Source: Pseudomonadota bacterium (lineage in GTDB: Bacteria; Pseudomonadota; Gammaproteobacteria; Burkholderiales; Burkholderiaceae_C). Taken from it: a stretch of DNA of 64,000 nucleotides. The position numbers and the translations under genes are program-made. Position 1 is the first letter of the stretch. The number at the start of each line of letters is the position of its first letter. A model generated the notes under the pieces. The model did no database searches. It was not told where the DNA came from and was given only the letters and a program-made list of their open reading frames with translations. The stretch is taken from NCBI GenBank assembly GCA_018242005.1, contig JAFECU010000275.1, forward strand, positions 1 to 64,000, given 5' to 3'. Of this stretch, positions 99 through 60,062 are shown piece by piece.

Positions 99-1664
99 TT
101 AACCCCCATTGGCCTGCAAAAACAGCCGATACGCGGGGTTCTGCGTCTCTTCCACATAGGGGTAGCCCAGCTGCTGCAGGAAGGCGTCGAACGCGGCGCT
201 GTCCTCGGCCGGCACCTGCATGCCGACGAGGATGCGGCCGTAGTCCGCGCCCTGGTTGCGGTAGTGGAACAGCGAGATGTTCCACGTGGGCTGCATCAGG
301 CTCAGAAACTTGAACAGCGCGCCGGGCCGCTCGGGGAAGGTGAAGCGCATCAGCCGCTCGTCGCGCGCCAGGGGCGAGCGCCCGCCGACCAGGTGGCGCA
401 GGTGTTCCTTGGCGAGCTCGTCATGCGTCAGGTCAAGCGCCTCGAAGCCGTGCTTGACGAAGTTTTTGGCGATTTTTTCCGACTCGCCCCGGCCGTGTGT
501 GGACAGGCCGACGAACACATGGGCTACTCTTTCGTGGCTGATGCGGTAGTTGAATTCGGTCACGTTGCGCGGCCCGCCGGGCAGCGCGCCCACCAACTCG
601 CAGAAGCGCTTGAAGCTGCCGCGTTCCTCGGGGATGGTGACGGCGAACAGCGCCTCGCGTTCCTCGCCCACGTCGGCGCGCTCGGCCACGAAGCGCAGGC
701 GGTCGAAGTTCATGTTGGCGCCCGACAGAATCGTGGCGTAGGTTTCGCCCTTGGTCTTGTGGCGCGCCACATACTGCTTGATGGCGGCCACGCCCAGGGC
801 GCCCGAGGGTTCGACGATGCTGCGCGTGTCGGCAAAGATGTCCTTGATGGCGGCGCAGACGGCGTCGGTGTCGACGATCACGTAGTCGTCCACCAGCGCA
901 TGGGCGACGCGGAAGGTTTCCTCACCCACGATCTTCACGGCCGTGCCGTCGGCAAACAGGCCCACGTCGGGCAGCTGCACGCGCTGGTGCTGGCGCGCCG
1001 ACTGGGCCATGGCGTCGGAGTCGTTCATCTGCACGCCGATGACCTTGGTCTGCGGGCTCACCGCCTTCAGGTAGTTGGCCACGCCGGCAATCAGCCCGCC
1101 GCCGCCAATCGGCACGAACACGGCGTCGAGCCGGTGGCTGCCCAGGGCCTGCAGCTGGCGCAGCATCTCCATGGCAATCGTGCCCTGGCCGGCGATCACG
1201 TCCGGGTCGTCGAAGGGGTGGACGAAGGTCAGGCCCTCGCTTTGCTGCAGGCGCACGGCGTGCTCGTAGGCGTCGGAATAGCTGTCGCCGGCCAGCACCA
1301 CCTCGCCGCCCAGGGTCTTGACGGCGTCCACCTTCACCTGGGGCGTGGTCGTGGGCATGACGATCACGGCGCGCGTGCCCAGCCGGGCCGCGCTCATGGC
1401 CACGCCCTGGGCATGGTTGCCGGCCGAGGCGCAGATCACGCCCTTGGCGAGTTGCTCGGCGGGTAGTTGCGCCATCTTGTTGTACGCCCCGCGCAGCTTG
1501 AAGCTGAATACGGGCTGCTGGTCCTCGCGCTTCAAGAGAATCTTGTTGTGCAGGCGGCGCGACAGCGATCGGGCGGGTTGCAGGTCGGACTCGACGGCCA
1601 CGTCGTACACGCGTGCCGTGAGGATTTTGGTCAGGTAGTCGAAGGGGGTGAGGGGCTCAGTCAT
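99..1664 (-). CDS. ilvA: threonine ammonia-lyase, biosynthetic (threonine dehydratase)
   Basis: A PLP enzyme that deaminates L-threonine to 2-oxobutanoate, the first committed step of isoleucine synthesis in the cytoplasm. The 521-residue protein has the usual length for the biosynthetic form. The PLP lysine lies in the SFKLRG motif near residue 58, a glycine-rich phosphate loop GGGGL follows in the catalytic domain, and the C-terminal third holds two ACT-like regulatory repeats (starting near LFAVTIPEERG and LMRFTFPERPG), which in this family bind isoleucine and valine. The catabolic enzyme lacks these repeats. No clear Shine-Dalgarno precedes the ATG at 1664. A candidate leader peptide and terminator lie upstream (1743-1847). 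The divergent neighbour is an OsmC-family gene. Confidence 0.96.
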   Translation of the reverse strand: MTEPLTPFDYLTKILTARVYDVAVESDLQPARSLSRRLHNKILLKREDQQPVFSFKLRGAYNKMAQLPAEQLAKGVICASAGNHAQGVAMSAARLGTRAVIVMPTTTPQVKVDAVKTLGGEVVLAGDSYSDAYEHAVRLQQSEGLTFVHPFDDPDVIAGQGTIAMEMLRQLQALGSHRLDAVFVPIGGGGLIAGVANYLKAVSPQTKVIGVQMNDSDAMAQSARQHQRVQLPDVGLFADGTAVKIVGEETFRVAHALVDDYVIVDTDAVCAAIKDIFADTRSIVEPSGALGVAAIKQYVARHKTKGETYATILSGANMNFDRLRFVAERADVGEEREALFAVTIPEERGSFKRFCELVGALPGGPRNVTEFNYRISHERVAHVFVGLSTHGRGESEKIAKNFVKHGFEALDLTHDELAKEHLRHLVGGRSPLARDERLMRFTFPERPGALFKFLSLMQPTWNISLFHYRNQGADYGRILVGMQVPAEDSAAFDAFLQQLGYPYVEETQNPAYRLFLQANGG

Positions 1665-1742
1665 GGTGCGATACCGCGGGCGCCATGGTGCGGGCGGCCG
1701 GGGCGCACATCATAGGCGCAGCGTGCCGGGCCGGCGCCGGGC

Positions 1743-1774
1743 AAAAAAAAGCCCCGGGCGGTAAGGCCTGGGGC
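1743..1774 (-). terminator. intrinsic terminator inside the ilvA leader
   Basis: On the minus strand a GCCCC/GGGGC stem with one internal mismatch, continued by GGC/GCC around a CTTACC loop, is followed by eight Ts. It lies about 80 nt upstream of the ilvA ATG and downstream of a TACAAT box, so it would stop ilvA transcripts early. It is therefore an attenuator candidate and not the end of another gene: the gene on the other side (OsmC family) is transcribed away from it. Confidence 0.65.
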
Positions 1775-1834
1775 TTAATCCATCCTTTTGAGGAGATGGA
1801 GGAGACAATCGGCGCGACGCATCGTGCATCGCAT
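1775..1834 (-). CDS. putative 19-aa leader peptide upstream of ilvA
   Basis: A small ORF of 19 codons encodes a peptide with the tract Leu-Leu-His-Leu-Leu (CTC CTC CAT CTC CTC) at codons 11-15. Its TAA stop directly abuts the terminator stem at 1774. The ATG lies only 7 nt after a TACAAT box, so the transcript would be leaderless. Branched-chain amino acid genes in other bacteria are often controlled by such leaders. The stop is unusually close to the terminator for classical attenuation: a ribosome at the stop would mask the stem. The ORF may be fortuitous; only sequence features support it. Confidence 0.35.
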   Translation of the reverse strand: MRCTMRRADCLLHLLKRMD

Positions 1835-1841
1835 GGGTCGA

Positions 1842-1847
1842 ATTGTA
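1842..1847 (-). promoter_or_regulatory. candidate -10 box of the ilvA leader transcript
   Basis: TACAAT on the minus strand, 7 nt before the ATG of the leader ORF. No good -35 element sits at 16-18 nt upstream; a TTGCTG lies 20 nt upstream. It matches 5 of 6 positions of the sigma-70 -10 consensus. Confidence 0.45.
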
Positions 1848-1932
1848 GCGTGTTGGGTGTTGCGTTGCAGCAAAATCGCGGCTTTGCACAAAATTAATTA
1901 CGGGTTCACCCTGATTTTTGGAGAAAAACAAC

Positions 1933-2382
1933 ATGGAATGCACAGTGAGCTGGACAGGCAGCGCCGGTACGCGCTCGGGTATGGGCTTTGTGGCCGAAAC
2001 CGGCAGCGGCCACATCCTGGCCATGGATGGCGCGCCCGACGCCGACCGTCCCGAGAACGGCGGCCAGAACCTGGCGCCGCGCCCCATGGAGGCCGTGCTG
2101 GCCGGCACGGGCGGTTGCACCGCCTACGACGTGGTGCTGATACTGAAGCGCGGGCGCCACGATGTGCGCGGCTGCAGCGTGAAGCTCAGCTCCGAGCGCG
2201 CGCCGGCCGACCCCAAGGTCTTCACCAAGATCCACATGCAGTTCACCGTGACCGGCCGCGGTATTCCAGCCAGCGCCGTGGAGCGCGCCATCGCCATGAG
2301 CCACGAGAAATACTGCTCGGCCAGCATCATGCTGGGCAAGACGGCGCAGATCACCACGGGCTTTGAGATCGTCGAGGGCTGA
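1933..2382 (+). CDS. OsmC family protein
   Basis: A 149-residue member of the OsmC/Ohr fold, which reduces organic hydroperoxides using a pair of cysteines in a small dimeric cytoplasmic enzyme. The first cysteine is in the conserved GTGGCTAYDV segment on the central helix and the second in the following RGCSV strand, matching the two-cysteine pattern of the family. The ATG at 1933 is preferred over an in-frame TTG at 1918 because GGAG lies 9 nt upstream of it. It is divergent from ilvA and appears monocistronic. The exact subgroup (OsmC, Ohr or YhfA-like) cannot be settled by eye; the length suits the YhfA-like group. Confidence 0.88.
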   Translation: MECTVSWTGSAGTRSGMGFVAETGSGHILAMDGAPDADRPENGGQNLAPRPMEAVLAGTGGCTAYDVVLILKRGRHDVRGCSVKLSSERAPADPKVFTKIHMQFTVTGRGIPASAVERAIAMSHEKYCSASIMLGKTAQITTGFEIVEG

Positions 2383-2484
2383 AGGGCAGGGTGGGGCGGC
2401 TGCCGTCGGGCGCCAAGAATCCGTTGACAATGTTGCATGTCGGCAACGAAATCCGGCTTTTGGCCCGAATGTGAGGGAATTCCT

Positions 2485-2513
2485 TTGCGAAAGCTGACGT
2501 GCTCTGTTGCAAT
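2485..2513 (+). promoter_or_regulatory. candidate promoter of the first porin gene
   Basis: TTGCGA, a 17-nt spacer, then TGCAAT, about 110 nt upstream of the porin ATG. A second possible -35 (TTGACA at 2424-2429) has only a poor -10. The interval 2383-2625 holds no ORF of interest and would give the porin mRNA a long untranslated leader, as is common for major porins. Confidence 0.35.
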
Positions 2514-2625
2514 AACACCAACTTCCCCACCAGGAGGTTGGCCCGGGGTTCCGGCGGGCGGGCGCGACACGCTCCCCCAAGCTTCACGATCCGGTGCCCT
2601 CTGTTAAACCTTGGAGTAACTCGTA

Positions 2626-3705
2626 ATGAAAAAATCTCTGATTGCCCTGGCAGTGCTGGCCGCTTCCGGCGCCGCAATGGCTCAGTCTTCCGTGACGCTG
2701 TTCGGTATCGTTGACGCCAACTTCGGCTATGTGAACCACGCCAACCCCGCCGGCGACGCCAAGTACGGCATCGGCACCAGCGGCAACGCAACCAGCCGTC
2801 TGGGCCTGCGTGGCACGGAAGACCTGGGTGGCGGCCTGAAGGCCGGCTTCTGGCTCGAAGGCGAACTGTTCAACGACGCTGGCAATCCTTCCGGTCTCGA
2901 CTTCAAGCGTGAATCCACCGTGCGCCTCGGCGGCAACTTCGGTGAAGTTCGCCTGGGTCGTGAGCTGGTCCCCACCTACCGCAAGGTTTCCTCCTATGAC
3001 GTGTTCGGCCAGGTTGGTATCGGCATGTTCCGCGGTTGGAGCAACTGGGCAAACGTGCCGGGTACCGGTACCAACGTTACCACCGCTGATGCTGACGGCT
3101 ATCGCGCCAGCAACATCATCAGCTACTACTCGCCCAACATCGCCGGCTTCACTGCTGGCGCGGGCTATGGCTTCGACGAGCAGACTTCGGGCAAGAACGG
3201 CCGCTACATTGGCGCCTTCGGTGCCTATGACAATGGCCCTCTGAGCGTGGCCCTGTCGTATGACCGTCGCAACATTGCCGGCACTTTGGGCGGTCCCGTG
3301 ACCGGCACCAAGGACAACCTGACCGTGGGTGCGTCCTACAACCTGAACGTTGTCAAGCTGGGCACTCTGCTGCAGCAGGCCAAGTACAAGGTTGACGGCT
3401 TTGGCGGTAGCGAGAAATTCAACTCCTACGCCCTGAACGTCACGGCTCCTGTGGGCGCCGGTGAAGTCAAGGCCCAATACGTGATGTACGACCAAAAGGC
3501 CATCAGCTCCAAGGCGCACCAATTCGCCGTGGGTTATGTGCACAACCTGTCCAAGCGCACCGCCGTGTACGGTACCCTGGCCTTCCTGAAGAACAAGGAT
3601 GCCTCCACCATGGGTCTGGCCGCCAAGGGCGTGAGCAACAACGACAACCCGGGTATTGGCAACAGCCAGACCGGCCTGCAACTGGGTATCCGCCACGCCT
3701 TCTAA
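2626..3705 (+). CDS. outer-membrane porin, Gram-negative general porin family
   Basis: A 359-residue trimeric beta-barrel porin of the betaproteobacterial type, allowing diffusion of small solutes across the outer membrane. The signal peptide starts MKKSLIALAVLAAS and ends in an AMAQ cleavage site near residue 20. The mature part opens with SSVTLFGIVDANFGYV, the typical first strand, has the LGLRGTEDLGGGLKAGF segment, and ends in a C-terminal phenylalanine (GIRHAF) needed for BAM-dependent assembly. Codon use is strongly biased, as for a highly expressed gene. It has its own terminator; a second, divergent porin follows. Substrate preference cannot be read from the sequence. Confidence 0.95.
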   Translation: MKKSLIALAVLAASGAAMAQSSVTLFGIVDANFGYVNHANPAGDAKYGIGTSGNATSRLGLRGTEDLGGGLKAGFWLEGELFNDAGNPSGLDFKRESTVRLGGNFGEVRLGRELVPTYRKVSSYDVFGQVGIGMFRGWSNWANVPGTGTNVTTADADGYRASNIISYYSPNIAGFTAGAGYGFDEQTSGKNGRYIGAFGAYDNGPLSVALSYDRRNIAGTLGGPVTGTKDNLTVGASYNLNVVKLGTLLQQAKYKVDGFGGSEKFNSYALNVTAPVGAGEVKAQYVMYDQKAISSKAHQFAVGYVHNLSKRTAVYGTLAFLKNKDASTMGLAAKGVSNNDNPGIGNSQTGLQLGIRHAF

Positions 3706-3745
3706 TTTCGGGCTGGCGCAAGGCCAGCTTGGAAGTTGAAGACAA

Positions 3746-3775
3746 AACCGCTGCCTTCGGGTGGCGGTTTTTTTT
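3746..3775 (+). terminator. rho-independent terminator after the first porin
   Basis: A nine-pair stem (two G-T wobbles) around a TTCG tetraloop is followed directly by a run of eight Ts, 40 nt after the porin stop codon. Confidence 0.92.
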
Positions 3776-3917
3776 CGTCCGTGCGCGGGCCACCGTCACC
3801 TGCGCAACACCAACCTAGGGGAAACGCCTGTGGTGGGAATGCGATAGAGCGCCTGGTTTCCTGTACGTAGTTCCTAGAATCAATCTATCCGATATTTTTA
3901 CAGGAGAGGGGCAGGTG

Positions 3918-5126
3918 ATGCGTTCTGTTAACAAAAAGGTCATTGCGCTGGCGGCGGTCGCCATTTGCGGGTCGGGTGCCAGCCTGGCGCAGTCGGCAGG
4001 CACCAGCAAGCTGGAGCTGTGGGGCATAGTGGACGCGGCGGTGCGTCACACCAACCATGAAGGGGCGAACAACTCCGGCCTGACGCGGTTGCTTGGCGGC
4101 GGCATGTCGCAAAGCCGCTGGGGCATCAACGTCGAGGAGGACCTGGGCGGTGGCTCCAAGGCCCTGGTGACGCTGGAAAACCGTTTCGATGCCGATACGG
4201 GCACGCCGGCGGCCAATTCGCCGTATTTCCAGCTCGCCCATGTGGGCCTGCAGGGGCCCTATGGCCGCCTGACGGCCGGGCGCCAGTGGAACGTGCTGTT
4301 CGACCTGGTGACCAGCACCTATGCGTCCTTCCCTTACTCGCCCTACATGGAGGCCTACAAGCCGGAACTCGGCATGGCCATGGGCGCGCGAAACAGCAAT
4401 ATGCTGAAGTACATGTTCGCCACGCCGGACCGTAGCTGGGTGGGCGCGCTGCAGTACTCCTTTGATGAGAACAACAAGTTCGGCTATGCCGGTTTTCCCG
4501 GTGCTGCCGCGCAGATACCGGCCTATGTGGCGGGCACGCTCAATGGCGGCGCGTGGAAGACGGCGGGCGGCTACCTGCGCTACTCGGCCGCCGGCGCGGC
4601 CGTGGGGGCCGGCTACCTGCGTACGACCTTGCCTGGCGGCACCGATGTCGATGCCTGGACGCTGGGCGGTTCCTACCGCACGGGCCCCTGGTATCTGACG
4701 GCTGGCTATGGCCTCAACAAGGCCAAGTTTGCCGCGGTGACCAGCCCGGTCATGGGGCTGCGCAATGCGGTCGATGCTGGCATCCTGGGCCAGTTCTGGG
4801 CCGGCCAGTCCAATGGCGGCTTCCAGCCGGGCGATGCCAACAAGCGTCAGCTGTTCAAGCTGGGCGTCGGCTACCAGATGACCACTCAGCTCAATTTGGG
4901 CGCGCATTACTTCCGCGGCAAGCAGACGGGCTCCGCTTCGGGTCTGTCCAATGGCAATGCCGACTTCCTGGTGGCGGTGGCCGACTACGCCTTCAGCAAG
5001 CGCACCGACGCCTATTTTGGCGTGGACTACACGCGCATCAGCGGTGGCAGAGCCATCGTGCTGGACACGGCCAGCAATGCCCGTAATCGCACGGGTATCA
5101 CGGTGGGCCTGCGCCACCGCTTCTGA
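3918..5126 (+). CDS. outer-membrane porin, second copy
   Basis: A 402-residue general porin, a diverged paralogue of the gene before it. The signal peptide MRSVNKKVIALAAVAICGSG ends at SLAQS. The mature protein starts with KLELWGIVDAAVRHTNH and has the conserved RWGINVEEDLGGGSKALVTLE segment, then ends in GLRHRF with the terminal phenylalanine. The ATG at 3918 follows a purine-rich AGGAGAGGGG; a GTG lies directly in front of it in frame and could also be used. Codon use is less biased than in the first porin, suggesting lower or conditional expression. It has its own terminator and precedes a peptide ABC operon, which may or may not be functionally linked. Confidence 0.94.
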   Translation: MRSVNKKVIALAAVAICGSGASLAQSAGTSKLELWGIVDAAVRHTNHEGANNSGLTRLLGGGMSQSRWGINVEEDLGGGSKALVTLENRFDADTGTPAANSPYFQLAHVGLQGPYGRLTAGRQWNVLFDLVTSTYASFPYSPYMEAYKPELGMAMGARNSNMLKYMFATPDRSWVGALQYSFDENNKFGYAGFPGAAAQIPAYVAGTLNGGAWKTAGGYLRYSAAGAAVGAGYLRTTLPGGTDVDAWTLGGSYRTGPWYLTAGYGLNKAKFAAVTSPVMGLRNAVDAGILGQFWAGQSNGGFQPGDANKRQLFKLGVGYQMTTQLNLGAHYFRGKQTGSASGLSNGNADFLVAVADYAFSKRTDAYFGVDYTRISGGRAIVLDTASNARNRTGITVGLRHRF

Positions 5127-5150
5127 CGCCGGCCTTTGTCGCAGCGACAC

Positions 5151-5177
5151 AAACCTCCTTCGGGAGGTTTCGCTTTT
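5151..5177 (+). terminator. rho-independent terminator after the second porin
   Basis: A perfect 8-pair stem AAACCTCC / GGAGGTTT with a TTCG loop, followed by CGCTTTT, 24 nt past the stop codon. Confidence 0.85.
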
Positions 5178-5275
5178 GCTGCTCTTCAATTTTGAACGGG
5201 TGGCCTCGTTGATGTTTTGGCCGTGGGGGATTTTCCACAGTGCCTTTTGACTCCGGGGCGGTGTAGCATGGCCCG

Positions 5276-6259
5276 ATGCTTGCCTTCATCCTGCGCAGAC
5301 TTCTACAGGCCCTGATCGTGATGGTCGCCGTGGCCTTCATCGCGTTCATGCTGTTCCAGTTCGTGGGTGACCCGGTGGCCATCTTGCTGGGCCAGGACGC
5401 CACGCCCCAGCAGGTGGCCGAGATGCGCGCCGCGCTGGGGCTGGACCAGCCCTTCATCGTGCAGTTCTGGCATTTCCTGGTGAATGCCGCGCAGGGCGAG
5501 TTCGGCATCAGCCTGCGCCAGGGCGCCAAGGTCTCGCGCCTGATTGCCGAGCGCTTTCCGGCCACGCTGGAGCTGTCGCTGGTGGCGGCCTTCATCGCGC
5601 TGGCCGTGGGCGTGCCCATGGGCGTGTATGCGGCGCTCAGGCGCGGCAGCTTTCTGAGCCAGCTGTTCATGACGCTGTCGCTGCTGGGCGTGTCGCTGCC
5701 CACCTTCCTGATCGGCATTCTGCTGATCCTGATCTTCTCCGTGACGCTGGGCTGGTTCCCGAGCTTCGGCCGTGGCGACGTGGTGCAGCTGGGCTGGTGG
5801 AACACGGGGCTGCTGTCGTTGGACGGCTGGCACCACATCGTGCTGCCGGCCATCACGCTGGCGATTTTTCAGCTCACCCTGATCATGCGCCTGGTGCGCG
5901 CCGAGATGCTGGAGGTGCTGCGCACCGACTACATCAAGTTCGCGCGTGCGCGCGGCCTGTCCGACCGCGCCATTCACTTCGGCCACGCGCTCAAGAACAC
6001 GCTGGTGCCGGTGATGACCATCACCGGCCTGCAGCTCGGCGGCCTGATCGCCTTTGCCATCATCACCGAGACCGTGTTCCAGTGGCCGGGCATGGGCCTG
6101 CTGTTCATACAGGCCGTGACCTTTGCCGACATCCCGGTGATGGCCGCCTACCTGTGCCTGATTGCGCTGATCTTCGTGGTCATCAACCTGGTGGTCGATC
6201 TGCTGTACTTTGCCGTCGACCCGCGCCTGCGCGTGGGCGGCAAGGGTGGGGGGCATTGA
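5276..6259 (+). CDS. peptide/nickel-type ABC transporter permease, DppB family
   Basis: A 327-residue inner-membrane permease of a DppB/OppB-type importer. It starts MLAFILRRLLQALIVMVAVAF, the characteristic first membrane helix, and has about six hydrophobic segments. The EAA loop that docks on the ATPases is seen as DYIKFARARGLSDRAI followed by HALKNTLVPVMT, exactly as in the family. The C-terminus ends in VDLLYFAVDPRLR, also typical. It begins an operon with an M20 amidohydrolase, a DppC permease and two ATPases; the next gene starts 1 nt after its stop. The substrate is unknown; dipeptides or N-acyl amino acids would suit the neighbouring hydrolase. Confidence 0.93.
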   Translation: MLAFILRRLLQALIVMVAVAFIAFMLFQFVGDPVAILLGQDATPQQVAEMRAALGLDQPFIVQFWHFLVNAAQGEFGISLRQGAKVSRLIAERFPATLELSLVAAFIALAVGVPMGVYAALRRGSFLSQLFMTLSLLGVSLPTFLIGILLILIFSVTLGWFPSFGRGDVVQLGWWNTGLLSLDGWHHIVLPAITLAIFQLTLIMRLVRAEMLEVLRTDYIKFARARGLSDRAIHFGHALKNTLVPVMTITGLQLGGLIAFAIITETVFQWPGMGLLFIQAVTFADIPVMAAYLCLIALIFVVINLVVDLLYFAVDPRLRVGGKGGGH

Positions 6260-6260
6260 C

Positions 6261-7481
6261 ATGCAGCCCACGCGCTTGAAGGCCGGCGGGCGTGCCTTTG
6301 CCCAGATCGCCCAGTACCACCCCGAGCTCACGGCCTTCCGGCGTGACCTGCACGCCCACCCCGAGCTTGGCTTCGAGGAGGTGTACACCAGCGCGCGCGT
6401 GCGCGAGGCGCTGCGCACCGCCGGTGTGGACGAGGTGCACGAGGGCATAGGCCGCACGGGCGTGGTCGGCATCATTCACGGCCAGGGGCGCGGCAGCGGC
6501 AGCATGATCGGACTGCGCGCCGACATGGACGCCCTGCCCATGACCGAGCACAACGACTTCGCCTGGAAGTCAGCCAAGAGCGGCCTGATGCACGGCTGCG
6601 GCCACGACGGCCACACCACCATGCTGGTGGGCGCGGCGCGCTACCTGGCGGCCACGCGCCACTTCGACGGCACGGCGGCGCTGATCTTCCAGCCCGGCGA
6701 GGAGGGGCTGGGCGGCGCGCGCGTGATGATCGAGGACGGGCTGTTCGAGCGCTTTCCCGTGCAGTCGGTCTACGCCATGCACAACTGGCCGGCCATGCGG
6801 CCCGGCACCGTGGGCATCAACGAAGGCGCCATGATGGCCGCGGCCGACCGCGTGACCATCGAGATCACGGGCCGCGGCGGCCATGGCGCCCACCCCTACC
6901 AGACGGTGGATGTGGTGCTGGTGGCGGGCCACATCATCACGGCGGTGCAAAGCATCGTCTCGCGCAATGTGCGCGCGCTCGACAGCGCCGTCATCAGCCT
7001 GTGCGCCGTGCAGGCGGGCGACCTGGGCGCGTTTAGCGTGTTGCCGGGCCAGGCCACGCTGGTGGGCACGGTGCGCGCCTTCAACCCCGCCGTGCAGGAC
7101 ATGGTGGCGCAGCGCATCAAGGACCTGTGCAATGCCATCGCCCTGGGGTTTGGCGCCACCGTCACGGTGCGCTACGAGCGCATCTACCCCGCCACCATCA
7201 ACACCGCGGCCGAGGCGCGCTTTGCCGGCGACGTGGCCGCCGCCCTGGTGGGCGAGGACAACGTGGACCGCGACCTGGAGCCCAGCATGGGCGCGGAGGA
7301 TTTTTCCTTCATGCTGCAGGCCAGGCCCGGCGCCTACCTGCGCCTGGGCCAGGGCATGGGCGCGGGCAACAGCACGCTGCACAACAGTCTGTACGACTTC
7401 AATGACGAGGTGCTGCCCCTGGGCGCGGCGCTGTATGCGGGCCTGGTGGAACAGGCCATGCCGCTGGCGGATGTGCAGTGA
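6261..7481 (+). CDS. M20 family amidohydrolase (hippurate hydrolase-like)
   Basis: A 406-residue zinc/manganese amidohydrolase of the M20D group, which removes acyl groups from N-acyl amino acids such as hippurate or cleaves related conjugates in the cytoplasm. Metal-binding motifs are visible: RADMDALP, MHGCGHDGHT, FQPGEEG and, near the C-terminus, MGAEDFSFML. The lid/dimerisation domain lies in between and includes GRGGHGAHP. The ATG at 6261 is chosen because it gives the normal family start (FAQIAQYHPELTAFRRDLHAHPELGFEE follows) and sits 1 nt after the permease stop. Being embedded in a peptide-type ABC operon suggests that it processes the imported substrate. Confidence 0.92.
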   Translation: MQPTRLKAGGRAFAQIAQYHPELTAFRRDLHAHPELGFEEVYTSARVREALRTAGVDEVHEGIGRTGVVGIIHGQGRGSGSMIGLRADMDALPMTEHNDFAWKSAKSGLMHGCGHDGHTTMLVGAARYLAATRHFDGTAALIFQPGEEGLGGARVMIEDGLFERFPVQSVYAMHNWPAMRPGTVGINEGAMMAAADRVTIEITGRGGHGAHPYQTVDVVLVAGHIITAVQSIVSRNVRALDSAVISLCAVQAGDLGAFSVLPGQATLVGTVRAFNPAVQDMVAQRIKDLCNAIALGFGATVTVRYERIYPATINTAAEARFAGDVAAALVGEDNVDRDLEPSMGAEDFSFMLQARPGAYLRLGQGMGAGNSTLHNSLYDFNDEVLPLGAALYAGLVEQAMPLADVQ

Positions 7482-34367: not shown

Positions 34368-34823
34368 GTGATTTGTTCACAGCCTCAGGCAAGAAAACAC
34401 AGGTGTCTGCGAATGCCAACGAACCGGCATCCTGAACCGGGGGTTCAGGTGGGCGAGGGCAGCCAGGCGTTGGGTTCATCTGACGCGAGATGATCACGCT
34501 CACCTGGCAATGTACCAAGCCCGTGCTCAATGAGCATTGGTTCAAGGAACTATAAAGCTCGCCAGCACCGCAGACCCCTTCATTGTAGTCGCTGCGCGCC
34601 GGGAACGGCGACCGACTCTCCACCACGTCTCCGACAAACGGCAGCCGACCGCCACCCTGCTGCGCTGGGCCAGGGTTTCAAGCCGTTTATCTGACCGCCG
34701 AGGAACCCGGCGATGAGGGTGGTGTCCACCGCGGTTGAGCCGCCGACATGGGTGGAATCCGTCCGCCAAAATGCAGAAGTGGCGCGTGCCACGCGCGCGC
34801 CACTTCTCTATTGGAGCTTGGCG
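34368..34823. other. intergenic region with hairpins, no gene recognised
   Basis: About 450 nt between the GGDEF-EAL gene and livF (convergent). A perfect 8-pair hairpin CCTGAACC / GGTTCAGG at 34431-34449 may end the EAL transcript but lacks a T-run. A short minus-strand frame at 34580-34792 shows no family I recognise and no ribosome site. The right end holds the liv terminator. Confidence 0.5.
34768..34807 (-). terminator. terminator of the liv operon
   Basis: A perfect 12-pair stem AGAAGTGGCGCG / CGCGCCACTTCT, 17 nt after the livF stop on the minus strand, followed by GCATTTTGG. Confidence 0.7.
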
Positions 34824-57480: not shown

Positions 57481-58593
57481 TCAGGCAGCCAGCAGGATGC
57501 GCAGCATGCGGCGCAGCGGCTCGGCCGCGCCCCACAGCAGCTGGTCGCCAATCACGAAGGCCGACACATATTCGGGCCCCATGTTGAGCTTGCGCACGCG
57601 GCCGACGCCCACGTCCAGGCCACCGGTGATGGCTGCGGGGGTGAGTTCCTTGACGGTGAGAGCCTTGTCGTTGGCGACGAACTTCACCCAGGGGTTGCCG
57701 CCCTGGATCAGCGATTCGATCTCGGAGAGTGGCAGATCCTTCTTGAGCTTCAAGGTCAGCGCCAGCGAATGGCAGCGCATGGCGCCAATGCGCACGCACA
57801 GGCCGTCGACGGGGATGGTGGCGGCCGTGCCCAGGATCTTGTTGACCTCGGCCTGGCCCTTCCACTCTTCCTTGGACTGGCCGTTGTCGAGCTGCGAGTC
57901 GATCCACGGAATCAGGCCCCCGGCCAGCGGCGCACCGAAGAACTCGGTGGGCACGTCCTGGCGTATGGTTTGCGCGACCTTGCGGTCGATCTCCAGAATC
58001 GCAGACGACGGCGTGGCCAGCAGATCGGCCACGCTGCCATAGACCACGCCCATGCCCTTCAAGAGCTCGCGCATGTGGTTGGCGCCGCCGCCCGAGGCCG
58101 CCTGGTAGGTCATGGAGCTGACCCACTCCACCAGATCGGCCTTGAACAGGCCGGCCAGGCCCATCAGCAGGATGGAGTTGGTGCAGTTGCCGCCGATCCA
58201 GTTCCTGCCGCCCGCGGCGAGCTTATTCTTGATCAGGCCGTCGTTGACCGGGTCGAGCACGATGACGGCGTCACCCTCCATGCGCAGCGCGCTGGCGGCG
58301 TCGATCCAGTGGCCCTGCCAGCCCGCAGCGCGGATTTTGGGGAAGACTTCCTTGGTGTAGTCGCCGCCCTGGCAGGTGATGATGATGTCGCACTTGGCGA
58401 GCTCGGCGACGTCGTTCGCGTCCTTGAGCTGGGTGTGCGCCTTGGCCATGGCGGGGGCCTTGCCGCCGGCGTTCGACGTGGAGAAGAACACCGGCTCGAT
58501 GAGGTCGAAGTCGCCCTCGGCCTGCATGCGATCCATCAACACCGAGCCGACCATGCCGCGCCAGCCGACCAGACCTACCAATTGCTTGCTCAT
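57481..58593 (-). CDS. asd: aspartate-semialdehyde dehydrogenase
   Basis: A 370-residue NADPH enzyme making aspartate semialdehyde, the branch point to lysine/diaminopimelate, threonine, methionine and isoleucine. The NADP loop is [17 protein letters not shown], the active-site Cys is in [12 protein letters not shown], and the later catalytic His segment is [17 protein letters not shown]. It is of the Gram-negative long form. A Thr/Ile-rich short ORF and hairpins precede it (58614-58818). Confidence 0.97.
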
Positions 58594-58613
58594 TTCAATC
58601 GCCCTTTCAAGTT

Positions 58614-58637
58614 AAAAACAGTTCGCACAAGACCTGT
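58614..58637 (-). terminator. weak terminator-like hairpin just upstream of asd
   Basis: On the minus strand ACAGGTC pairs with GAACTGT (one mismatch) around TTGTGC and is followed by five Ts, about 20 nt before the asd ATG. Upstream are competing stems: CTGGCC/GGCCAG and a CCGG-CGTC/GACG-CCGG pairing that cannot form together. The layout resembles an attenuator. Confidence 0.4.
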
Positions 58638-58699
58638 GGCTGCTTTTCTGGCCCCGGCTCGTCTGGCCAGGGAGGGCGCACGACGATGCCGGAGCTGGA

Positions 58700-58804
58700 T
58701 CAGCCCTTAATGGTCGTCGTGGTTTTGATGGTGAATGCGCGCGCGGCCGGCGCTGCCAGGTTGGCAGGCTTGTTCGTCATGGGGAACGGGCGGGCGGCAG
58801 ACAT
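58700..58804 (-). CDS. putative Thr/Ile-rich leader peptide upstream of asd
   Basis: A 34-codon ORF ending FTIKTTTTIKG: the final 11 codons hold five Thr (ACC, ACC, ACG, ACG, ACC), two Ile and two Lys. This resembles E. coli thrL, whose Thr/Ile tract controls the threonine operon by attenuation. Asd feeds exactly Thr, Ile, Lys and Met synthesis. The ATG lies 8 nt after TACAAT (58818-58813), so the mRNA would be leaderless. There is no Shine-Dalgarno. Stems and a T-run follow before asd. An internal ATG at codon 9 is an alternative. Not proven; see findings. Confidence 0.5.
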   Translation of the reverse strand: MSAARPFPMTNKPANLAAPAARAFTIKTTTTIKG

Positions 58805-58812
58805 AGGGGAAC

Positions 58813-58818
58813 ATTGTA
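58813..58818 (-). promoter_or_regulatory. candidate -10 box of the asd leader transcript
   Basis: TACAAT on the minus strand, 8 nt before the ATG of the leader ORF, in the gap between leuB and asd. No clear -35 hexamer lies 17 nt upstream. Confidence 0.5.
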
Positions 58819-58861: not shown

Positions 58862-59932
58862 TTAGCGCAATGCGTTGACGACCGCGTCGCCCATCTGCAC
58901 CGTGCCCACCTTGGTCGTGCCCTCGCTGTGGATGTCGGGCGTGCGCAGGCCCTGGGCCAGCACCTTTTTCACTGCCGACTCGATGCGGTCGGCCGCCTCG
59001 GCCTGGCCCAGCGAGAAACGCAGCATCATGGCCGCGGACAGGATGGTGGCCAGCGGGTTGGCCACGCCCTTGCCGGCGATGTCGGGGGCGCTGCCGTGGC
59101 TGGGCTCGTACAGGCCCTGCTTCCTGTCGTTGAGCGACGCCGAGGGAAGCATGCCGATGGAGCCGGTGAGCATGGAGGCTTCGTCCGAGAGGATGTCGCC
59201 GAACATGTTGCCGGTGACGATCACGTCGAAGGCCTTGGGCGCCTTGACGAGCTGCATGGCGGCGTTGTCCACGTACATGTGGTCAAGCTGCACGTCGGGG
59301 TAGTCCTTGTGCACCTCGGTGACCACGTCCTTCCACAGCTGGAAGGTCTCGAGCACGTTGGCCTTGTCCACGCTGGTCACGCGCTTGCTCCGCTTGCGTG
59401 CCGCCTCGAACGCCACGCGGGCGATGCGCTCGATCTCGGGGCGCGAGTAGCGCATGGTGTCGAAGGCCTCCTCGGCACCGGGAAAGTGGCCATCGGTGGC
59501 GACGCGGCGCCCGCGCGGCTGGCCGAAGTAGATGTCGCCCGTGAGCTCGCGGATGATGAGGATATCGAGGCCCGCGACCAGCTCGGGCTTGAGGCTGCTG
59601 GCGTGCGTGAGCTGCTCGTAGCAGATCGCGGGGCGGAAGTTGGCAAACAGGCCCAGCGCCTTGCGCAGGCCCAGGATGGCCTGCTCGGGGCGCAGCGGGC
59701 GGTCGCGCTTGTCGTACTTCCAGTCGCCCACGGCGCCGAACAGGATGGCGTCGGCCTCGCGGGCGAGCTTGAGCGTGGACTCGGGCAGCGGGTGGCCCGC
59801 GGCCTCGTAGGCGGCGCCGCCGACGGGGGCGGTTTCGAGCTCGAACTTCAGATCCAGGGCCTTCAGGACCTTGACGGCCTCGGCGACGATTTCGGTGCCA
59901 ATGCCGTCACCGGGGAGAACTGCGATTTTCAT
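58862..59932 (-). CDS. leuB: 3-isopropylmalate dehydrogenase
   Basis: A 356-residue NAD enzyme oxidising and decarboxylating 3-isopropylmalate in leucine synthesis. The start [22 protein letters not shown] is the family N-terminus; [14 protein letters not shown]-like and the metal-binding DNAAMQLV and [23 protein letters not shown] are all present. It follows leuD after a 135-nt gap with two REP-like palindromes. Confidence 0.97.
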
Positions 59933-59976
59933 GGTTTGGATGTTCAGAGTTGATGACTGTTGACGCTCTATTCACT

Positions 59977-60062
59977 CGTCATTCCCGCAAACGCGGGAAT
60001 CCACGGGTGCAGAGGTTGGCTGTGGGGCAGGCATGGATCCCCGCCTTCGCGGGGATGACGGG
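59977..60062. repeat. pair of REP-like palindromes between leuD and leuB
   Basis: ATTCCCGC / GCGGGAAT at 59981-60000 and ATCCCCGC / GCGGGGAT at 60037-60056. The first is preceded by CGTC and the second followed by GACG, so the two stand in opposite orientation, like a REP pair (BIME). Both are inside the leucine gene cluster. Confidence 0.85.

Follow-up and report, generated by a model that had tools for sequence, protein, structure and literature searches.

The closest described counterpart of the element reported here is thrL of Escherichia coli, a Thr/Ile-rich leader that forms the thrABC attenuator (Thr_leader in Rfam). A second E. coli system, rph-pyrE, uses a full upstream structural gene as its translated leader and responds to UTP via the coupling of transcription and translation, not via codons. 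The gene asd, for aspartate-semialdehyde dehydrogenase, stands at the branch point for Thr, Ile, Lys, Met and the cell-wall precursor diaminopimelate. In translational attenuators such as ermC, which an attenuator survey names (PMC2965389), the place of the ribosome in a leader ORF determines whether the next gene can begin to be translated. The excerpted main text of that survey does not mention asd, nor do excerpts of PMC1262725. Searches of open-licence papers for leader peptides together with asd, Burkholderiales, betaproteobacteria, leuB or the genera named below returned no paper on the present system among the matches listed (a mention in the proteobacterial survey of Vitreschak et al., 2004, is possible), and no description, among those matches, of how these bacteria adjust asd to demand.

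The element upstream of asd shares with thrL a Thr/Ile-rich tail, mutually exclusive stems between which a stalled ribosome would choose, and an aspartate-family gene downstream. It differs in preceding asd and not thrABC, in counting Lys as part of its code, in having strand 2 compete for strand 4, the 3′ half of the OFF hairpin, in having no conserved terminator, and in being fused to LeuB in many genera. Of the features typical of thrL-type attenuators, the comparison and the folds point to a cluster of pathway-product codons in a frame predicted to be translated and to exclusive stems, and not to an intrinsic terminator as the OFF structure. The likeness to ermC lies in the use of ribosome position; the signal here would be amino acid supply and not a drug, and the leader carries biosynthesis-specific codons. 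The asd element appears to be known in kind and new in its target, its code, its probable output and, above all, its LeuB-embedded form.

The window is the whole stretch of DNA that was analysed, 64,000 nucleotides of a Burkholderiales contig (JAFECU010000275.1). The first-pass annotation had proposed, for positions 58614-58818, a Thr/Ile-rich leader attenuating asd by thrL-like logic. The limits of this range are a -10-like hexamer (58818-58813) and the last base of a T-run (58618-58614), and all of the features lie on the minus strand, a point that was unstated at the time. The controlled gene (57481-58593, 370 aa) is one that we take to be asd, from its sequence and neighbours alone. Upstream, at 58862-59932, is a gene that, by its sequence, is presumably leuB, encoding 3-isopropylmalate dehydrogenase; it ends in ..GDAVVNALR with no tail, unlike the leuB of other genera, where the C-terminus holds the regulatory codons. 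Between the two genes lies the leader ORF (58700-58804), which has the 34 codons and the tail claimed for it, MSAARPFPMTNKPANLAAPAARAFTIKTTTTIKG, and is not preceded by a Shine-Dalgarno sequence. Its last 11 codons, FTIKTTTTIKG, include five Thr, two Ile and two Lys. The regulatory codons, as defined from a table of residues by position and from codon classes, are T I K T T T T I K (58706-58732), which occupy positions -10 to -2 counted back from the stop. The N-terminal half had been called not distinctive and is indeed only loosely conserved, so the leader ORF as a whole is unremarkable.

The codon run itself is exceptional. Out of 1573 stop-ended frames in the window that have 11 or more open codons, the leader alone shows six or more Thr+Ile among its final 11 (seven, with a runner-up of five). 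In 40 third-order Markov copies of the window, seven Thr+Ile were reached in 0 of 70,663 frames and six in 2. Among 14,035 frames from a set of long related loci, all 26 with at least seven Thr+Ile were at the asd leader position. Thr/Ile/Lys/Met codons fill positions -2 to -7 in 94-100% of loci in both the separate (n = 77) and the LeuB-fused (n = 63) forms, and position -8 in 95% of the separate and 86% of the fused loci. These four amino acids have no common chemistry; their common precursor is aspartate semialdehyde, the product of Asd.

All of these codons begin with A, and base bias therefore had to be excluded as the source of the run. At positions -8 to -2 of 112 loci, which had been picked for such tails, 753 of 784 codons are A-first, divided into 395 Thr, 148 Ile, 203 Lys (AAR), 6 Met and 1 Ser (AGY), with no Asn (AAY) and no Arg-AGR. 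Because of that choice of loci, the count was redone on family loci picked by the RNA core with the codons unseen, a core that 95 of 130 loci possess. Thr/Ile/Lys/Met account for 616 of their 665 codons, with 1 Asn and 4 AGN, a count in which L100 and L167, read with a wrong stop or frame, were kept. Base bias was rejected on these numbers (1 Asn and 4 AGN in 665 codons). Judged by codon counts, Lys is part of the code beside Thr and Ile. The RNA core and the codons also go together, the core being found in 91 of 103 strict leaders and missing in 21 of 23 loci that have no leader.

The distribution of the leader was followed with a strict rule, namely a stop lying 60-170 nt upstream of asd and, in the 11 codons that precede it, at least four Thr+Ile and at least six Thr+Ile+Lys+Met. 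In the window's genus (8 genomes sampled) the tail is kept at 8/8 loci, and absence of the Thr run in close relatives, which would have counted against the proposal, was not observed. For the window's family, 150 genomes were drawn evenly, 147 had an asd match, and 130 loci were read (30 loci and 100 fetched stretches). The strict tail precedes asd in 103/130, in 54 as a separate ORF, that is, a dedicated leader peptide gene like that of the window, and in 49 as a run within leuB, L140 having been moved to the fused class by eye. The other 27 comprise four weak fused tails and 23 loci with none, among them L096, which has just 10 bases upstream. An extra Thr codon in 5/59 aligned separate leaders is a whole-codon insertion. 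With the tail kept in relatives and the stems covarying (below), the idea of a Thr/Ile leader attenuating asd is supported as far as sequence can carry it.

Outside the family the samples are uneven, because the 40 order stretches were hand-picked from 200 genomes and the 20 Ralstonia-family loci were the best-scoring of 57 (60 genomes, 57 with a match). Four of the 40 order stretches, from two other families, have the tail, 35 do not (including L227-L229, from small-genome members of the Ralstonia family), and one was unparsed; in the Ralstonia family, 19/20 of these best-scoring loci have a leader as judged by eye. For named genomes, the best 80 of 594 asd loci gave 32 with a leader, 47 without and one unparsed. 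Separate leaders are carried by Comamonas testosteroni, Giesbergeria, Melaminivora, Macromonas and Ralstonia, among others, and the fused form by, e.g., Variovorax, Xenophilus, Ramlibacter, Caenimonas, Malikia and Xylophilus. Many of the named loci without a leader are titled Oxalobacteraceae, Gallionellaceae or gammaproteobacteria, or bear the names of genera of those groups; L014 and L041, from assemblies titled Comamonas, also have none. Two of the 255 loci first parsed, L043 and L250, were dropped for want of a recognisable asd start. The 112-locus set used here and below derives from 68 + 56 dereplicated leaders, with 12 left out, either as members of other families (L058, L225, L226, L248, L249) or for odd spacing or sequence (L020, L122, L183, L126, L205, L206, L213).

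The element is specific to asd. A covariance model (R1) had one match of at least 60 bits, at asd, in 21 of 24 family genomes. The next match, at 31.8 bits, is a degenerate element at asd in genome G008, and the rest reach at most 25.2 bits. With stricter filters, a search of 276 class genomes left three family genomes and one weak match (25.5 bits) passing an E of 0.01. A second copy of the element elsewhere in the genomes was considered and rejected by the R1 search of the 24 family genomes. The pattern TTIK(G/S)-stop matched once each in 9/20 genomes, inside the R1 element in 9/9, and the reversed control gave 0. Rfam has no family match at the gathering score at this locus in the window, and a search of seven loci with E up to 1 returned a single weak match, to isrG, well away from the leader of L058. 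In 10/67 separate loci the 1.4 to 2 kb examined upstream revealed no leuB, and the leader is still at asd; an eleventh stretch was too short. We regard as real, at the level of sequence, an attenuator-like element that is tied to asd, appears to read several amino acids and occurs in the window's family; the Ralstonia family has a related one.

The Ralstonia-family leader is followed by other sequence, with a conserved CUUCCCCGC...GCGGGGAAG in most loci, and in several of them the Thr-Ile codons are complementary to the stop region (both by eye). In a further family of the order, the leaders of L248 and L249 end in TTTIITKTVMKG and TTIITKKTKTIILV and their downstream sequence is unrelated. L213 (the G008 locus) and L214 (genome G023) have weak tails, GKATTN and GKALTRS, and score 31.8 and 22.3 bits at asd. 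These degenerate elements look like decay of the fused form.

The separate leader probably lacks a 5′ untranslated region. A hexamer matching TATAAT at 5 or 6/6 positions, with a gap of 6-10 to the ATG, precedes 57/59 separate family leaders, whose start codon was selected in knowledge of the hexamer; where a single ATG is on offer, the rule holds in 18/20. The same rule is satisfied by about 1% of shuffled upstream sequence and by 1.1% of 1306 other ATGs upstream of asd (leader-free loci). In the window the hexamer is TACAAT (58813-58818), 8 bases 5′ of the leader ATG, and the Ralstonia family has TATATT or TAGACT 6-8 bases before the ATG in the 18 leaders examined. A consensus promoter scan reported no promoter. 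An SD-like 4-mer is found before 2/59 leader ATGs vs 142/148 asd ATGs. Because a -10-like hexamer lies 6-10 bases before the ATG and a Shine-Dalgarno sequence is missing, a leaderless transcript is the probable template for translation of the separate leader, and its start is predicted from the hexamer alone; the hexamer also speaks for an asd transcript starting at the leader. Leaderless leader peptides have precedents, as excerpts of the respective papers indicate, in trpL of Sinorhizobium meliloti (PMC7298713) and ilvL of Corynebacterium glutamicum (PMC11857589). In those systems, according to the same excerpts, the transcript begins at the leader ATG or one base off, as is predicted here; the amino acids and the bacteria are others.

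Downstream of the leader stop, the family has a constant order of strand 2 (CUCCGG-UUCGUC), linker (CGCCC), strand 3 (CCCGGC), strand 4 (GACGAGCCGGG), a variable stretch and the asd Shine-Dalgarno sequence (AAGGGCG). Strand 4 has two rival partners, strand 2 in stem A and strand 3 in stem B. By covariation and folding, the corresponding parts of the window are strand 1, GGGCUG (58701-58706, comprising the last bases of the final codons together with the stop), which can pair with 58697-58692 to form hairpin 1:2; strand 2, GCUCCGGCAUCGUC (58682-58695), for stem A (ON); the linker CGCCCU (58673-58678), complementary to the asd Shine-Dalgarno region AAGGGCG (58600-58606) in helix E (OFF); strand 3, CCCUGGC (58666-58672), for stem B (OFF); and strand 4, GACGAGCCGGGGC (58651-58663), common to stems A and B.

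The first-pass annotation had described mutually exclusive stems from the single sequence, and the comparison of relatives bears them out. In both classes each pairing bound more strongly with the partner from its own genome than with partners swapped in from other genomes; 0 (stem A), 0 (stem B) and 2 (linker:SD) of 10,000 permutations were as low for the 60 separate loci, and 1, 196 and 0 for the 52 fused loci, values inflated by kinship among the sequences. Two of the 112 loci entered with errors, L100 with a misplaced strand 2 anchor and L140, a LeuB fusion, counted as separate; the result does not depend on them. No signal came from 2:RBS and 1:3, the control pairings (1615 to 6957 of 10,000 permutations as low). 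For stem B in the fused class the mean is better with the own partner, which is worse than the median foreign partner in 23/52 and better in 7/52. The linker:SD match may in part be generic Shine-Dalgarno complementarity. On alignment A3 (64 of 65 dereplicated rows, L211 left out), stem A is 84.7% paired (0/500 shuffles as high) and stem B 92.0% (1/500), and sliding the partner abolishes the pairing of both. Cells changed on both sides number 35 vs 19.2 in shuffles for stem A and 6 vs 1.6 for stem B; further pair types on A3 were not clearly above shuffles (404 and 189 of 500 as high). Within stem A, conservation is poor for the innermost pair and for the outer ones (columns 29-86 and 30-85).

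The most direct evidence for a shared strand is a three-way covariation. Where strand 4 reads CCAG, in nine loci that are not necessarily nine independent events and perhaps represent few, a compensating U is found in both strand 2 and strand 3 (9/9). In the other 103 loci, strand 2 has CCGG in 76 and CUGG in 13, and strand 3 has CCGG in 83 and CUGG in 14. Hairpin 1:2 covaries in the fused class (40/10,000 permutations as low, with GAGC paired with GCUC in 21/21) and in all 112 loci in fixed windows (1/10,000); within the separate class no covariation was seen (3172/10,000). RNAalifold on the full alignments A1 and A2 returned only 11 and 4 pairs, most of them belonging to stem A; the strand common to both stems and the poor alignment of the 3′ part probably explain this. 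The whole leader folded as one piece has a z of -1.86, with the states not separated. In L121, L134, L135, L171 and similar fused loci, a common CCUGGACCCC stands before strand 3 and a complementary GGGGUCCGG-like stretch after strand 4 (by eye). Their pairing, seen in the fold of L134, is a possible additional helix.

We consider the element to be, probably, a ribosome-read attenuator of asd that senses Thr, Ile and Lys codons, occasionally Met, and that hides the Shine-Dalgarno sequence in its OFF state. The leader would be translated, and about its last eight codons would call for amino acids that derive from aspartate semialdehyde. When the charged tRNAs are scarce, the ribosome would stall at codons around -5 to -2 and cover strand 1. 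Strand 2 would then be free to pair with the emerging strand 4 (stem A), the asd Shine-Dalgarno sequence would stay open, and asd would be made. When the charged tRNAs are plentiful, the ribosome would reach the stop and cover the head of strand 2; strand 3 would pair with strand 4 (stem B), the linker CGCCC would pair with GGGCG of the Shine-Dalgarno sequence (helix E), and asd would be low. In the form found in the window the sensor would be a free-standing ORF, probably leaderless, that has a -10-like hexamer of its own. Where the codons end leuB, as in other genera, the ribosomes finishing LeuB would do the sensing.

This switch was modelled with a ribosome footprint of 12 nt past the first base of the A-site codon, the textbook value. 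In transcripts cut after strand 4, a stall at codon -5, -4 or -3 gave stem A in 59/60 separate and 51/52 fused loci. With the ribosome at the stop, stem B formed in 36/60 and 40/52, and stem A still in 11/60 and 9/52. The same transcripts preferred stem A with no ribosome at all (43/60 and 37/52). Thus, unlike in classic attenuators, hairpin 1:2 would not keep the untranslated RNA safely OFF. In full-length folds of the window, the unpaired probability of the Shine-Dalgarno sequence is 0.70 in the stalled state vs 0.22 with the ribosome at the stop. For the separate class as a whole, access rises on stalling in 32/60 and falls in 4/60 (means 0.39 vs 0.26). The full-length equilibrium fold of the fused class shows no switch, with access up in 13/52 and down in 9/52; in the stalled state stem A has at least 5 pairs in just 6/52, and stem B and the linker:SD pairs prevail. 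Because strand 4 is transcribed before the Shine-Dalgarno sequence, an early decision may count.

As in E. coli thrL, the same sensor and stems could instead end transcription, either intrinsically at a hairpin with a U-run or through the action of Rho on leader RNA that is not being translated. The rivalry of stems A and B resembles that in classic attenuators, and in 25/60 separate loci the stretch from strand 4 to the Shine-Dalgarno sequence contains a hairpin whose last base lies 0-2 nt 5′ of TTT. The weak stem and T-run noted before asd at the outset belong to this group. They are present in the window, as a weak, terminator-like arrangement of A-run, hairpin and U-run (58614-58647), and in that respect the early description stands; they are not general in the family, and just 4/52 fused loci have such a hairpin. 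In the window, moreover, the hairpin is predicted in both the stalled and the stop states and is therefore not conditional. A consensus terminator scan did not list a U-run hairpin before asd, and its one minus-strand site was a chance site inside asd. The linker:SD complementarity, on the other hand, covaries. Control of translation fits better, because the linker can hide the asd Shine-Dalgarno sequence and the terminator is not conserved. Hiding of the Shine-Dalgarno sequence is the more likely output and intrinsic termination as a general output the less likely one; overall, we consider transcription termination through these stems unlikely.

Two further readings concern the peptide. Arrest peptides such as TnaC and SecM act through the nascent chain and not through tRNA shortage at codons, and a short tail, conserved and set at a constant distance from the stop codon, that is retained even when fused to LeuB is what such a peptide might look like. 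Yet Thr, Ile and Lys interchange by position, giving 28 different 7-residue tails in the 60 separate loci and 31 in the 52 fused ones. This fits their common biosynthetic origin and not a common chemistry, and in the fused form the rest of the peptide is quite different; a nascent-chain mechanism is thus very unlikely. The loose conservation of the N-terminal half might also suggest a chance ORF, or a functional small protein with no part in asd control. None of the simulated frames matches the leader's score, and the motif stays at asd in the loci where leuB was not found, and with asd genes of two clades, so that we give this reading hardly any weight. Sensing through codons, with the asd Shine-Dalgarno sequence as the target, is the reading we retain.

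The leader is not always a separate ORF, because 49 of the 103 positive loci carry it as the LeuB C-terminus. In these 49/130 family loci LeuB reads in frame into the regulatory codons, and the fused proteins have 10-21 residues after GDAV, vs 4-9 in 141/144 other LeuB ends. Like rph in rph-pyrE, a full upstream structural gene is then the translated leader; here, unlike in rph-pyrE, specific codons are present and kept at the leuB end. On a quick LeuB tree (113 rows), the separate and fused forms need four changes among the 53 leader-bearing rows outside the Ralstonia family, and at least three of these are forced by well-supported branches. The Malikia loci, for example, adjoin separate-leader relatives, apart from the Variovorax group. 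A single origin of the fused form is thus not favoured on this quick tree of 53 leader-bearing rows. Fusion to LeuB apparently arose more than once, and the changes of form may be a mix of gains and losses. Probably, C-terminal codons of LeuB have repeatedly become the amino acid sensor of the next gene, so that a leader peptide was absorbed into an enzyme whose last residues would be there for their codons, not for the protein.

The asd gene downstream has also changed. The Asd proteins form two clades (support 99), and on the LeuB tree (53 rows) at least four switches from one to the other are needed. Among leader-bearing loci, the genes of the two clades are about 67-72% and 79-100% identical to that of the window. 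They alternate between close LeuB relatives with the leader kept (L110, L111, L108, L105-L107, L256-L258). This alternation suggests repeated replacement of a central gene under one regulator. Because the leader stays across asd clades and where leuB is not found, the element goes with the place upstream of asd, and not with one asd gene or with leuB.

If the LeuB-embedded reading is true, every ribosome finishing LeuB gauges the supply of the end products of Asd and sets asd expression. The element offers a testable control circuit that would read several end products at once. The fused form suggests that a regulatory leader can ride as the tail of an enzyme, and protein annotation would miss the meaning of such tails. 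It also makes it worthwhile to look for codon sensors where further genes of biosynthetic operons end.

Elsewhere in the window, Rfam identifies a Betaproteobacteria toxic small RNA (RF02278, 61.8 bits) at 1744-1807 and a 6S RNA (RF00013, 52.8 bits) at 34400-34579, both on the minus strand. In the leuD-leuB gap, at about 59968-60062, two hairpin-like units, TTCCCGCAAACGCGGGAA and CCCCGCCTTCGCGGGG, were seen by eye on either side of a short spacer, an arrangement that resembles dispersed palindromic repeats.
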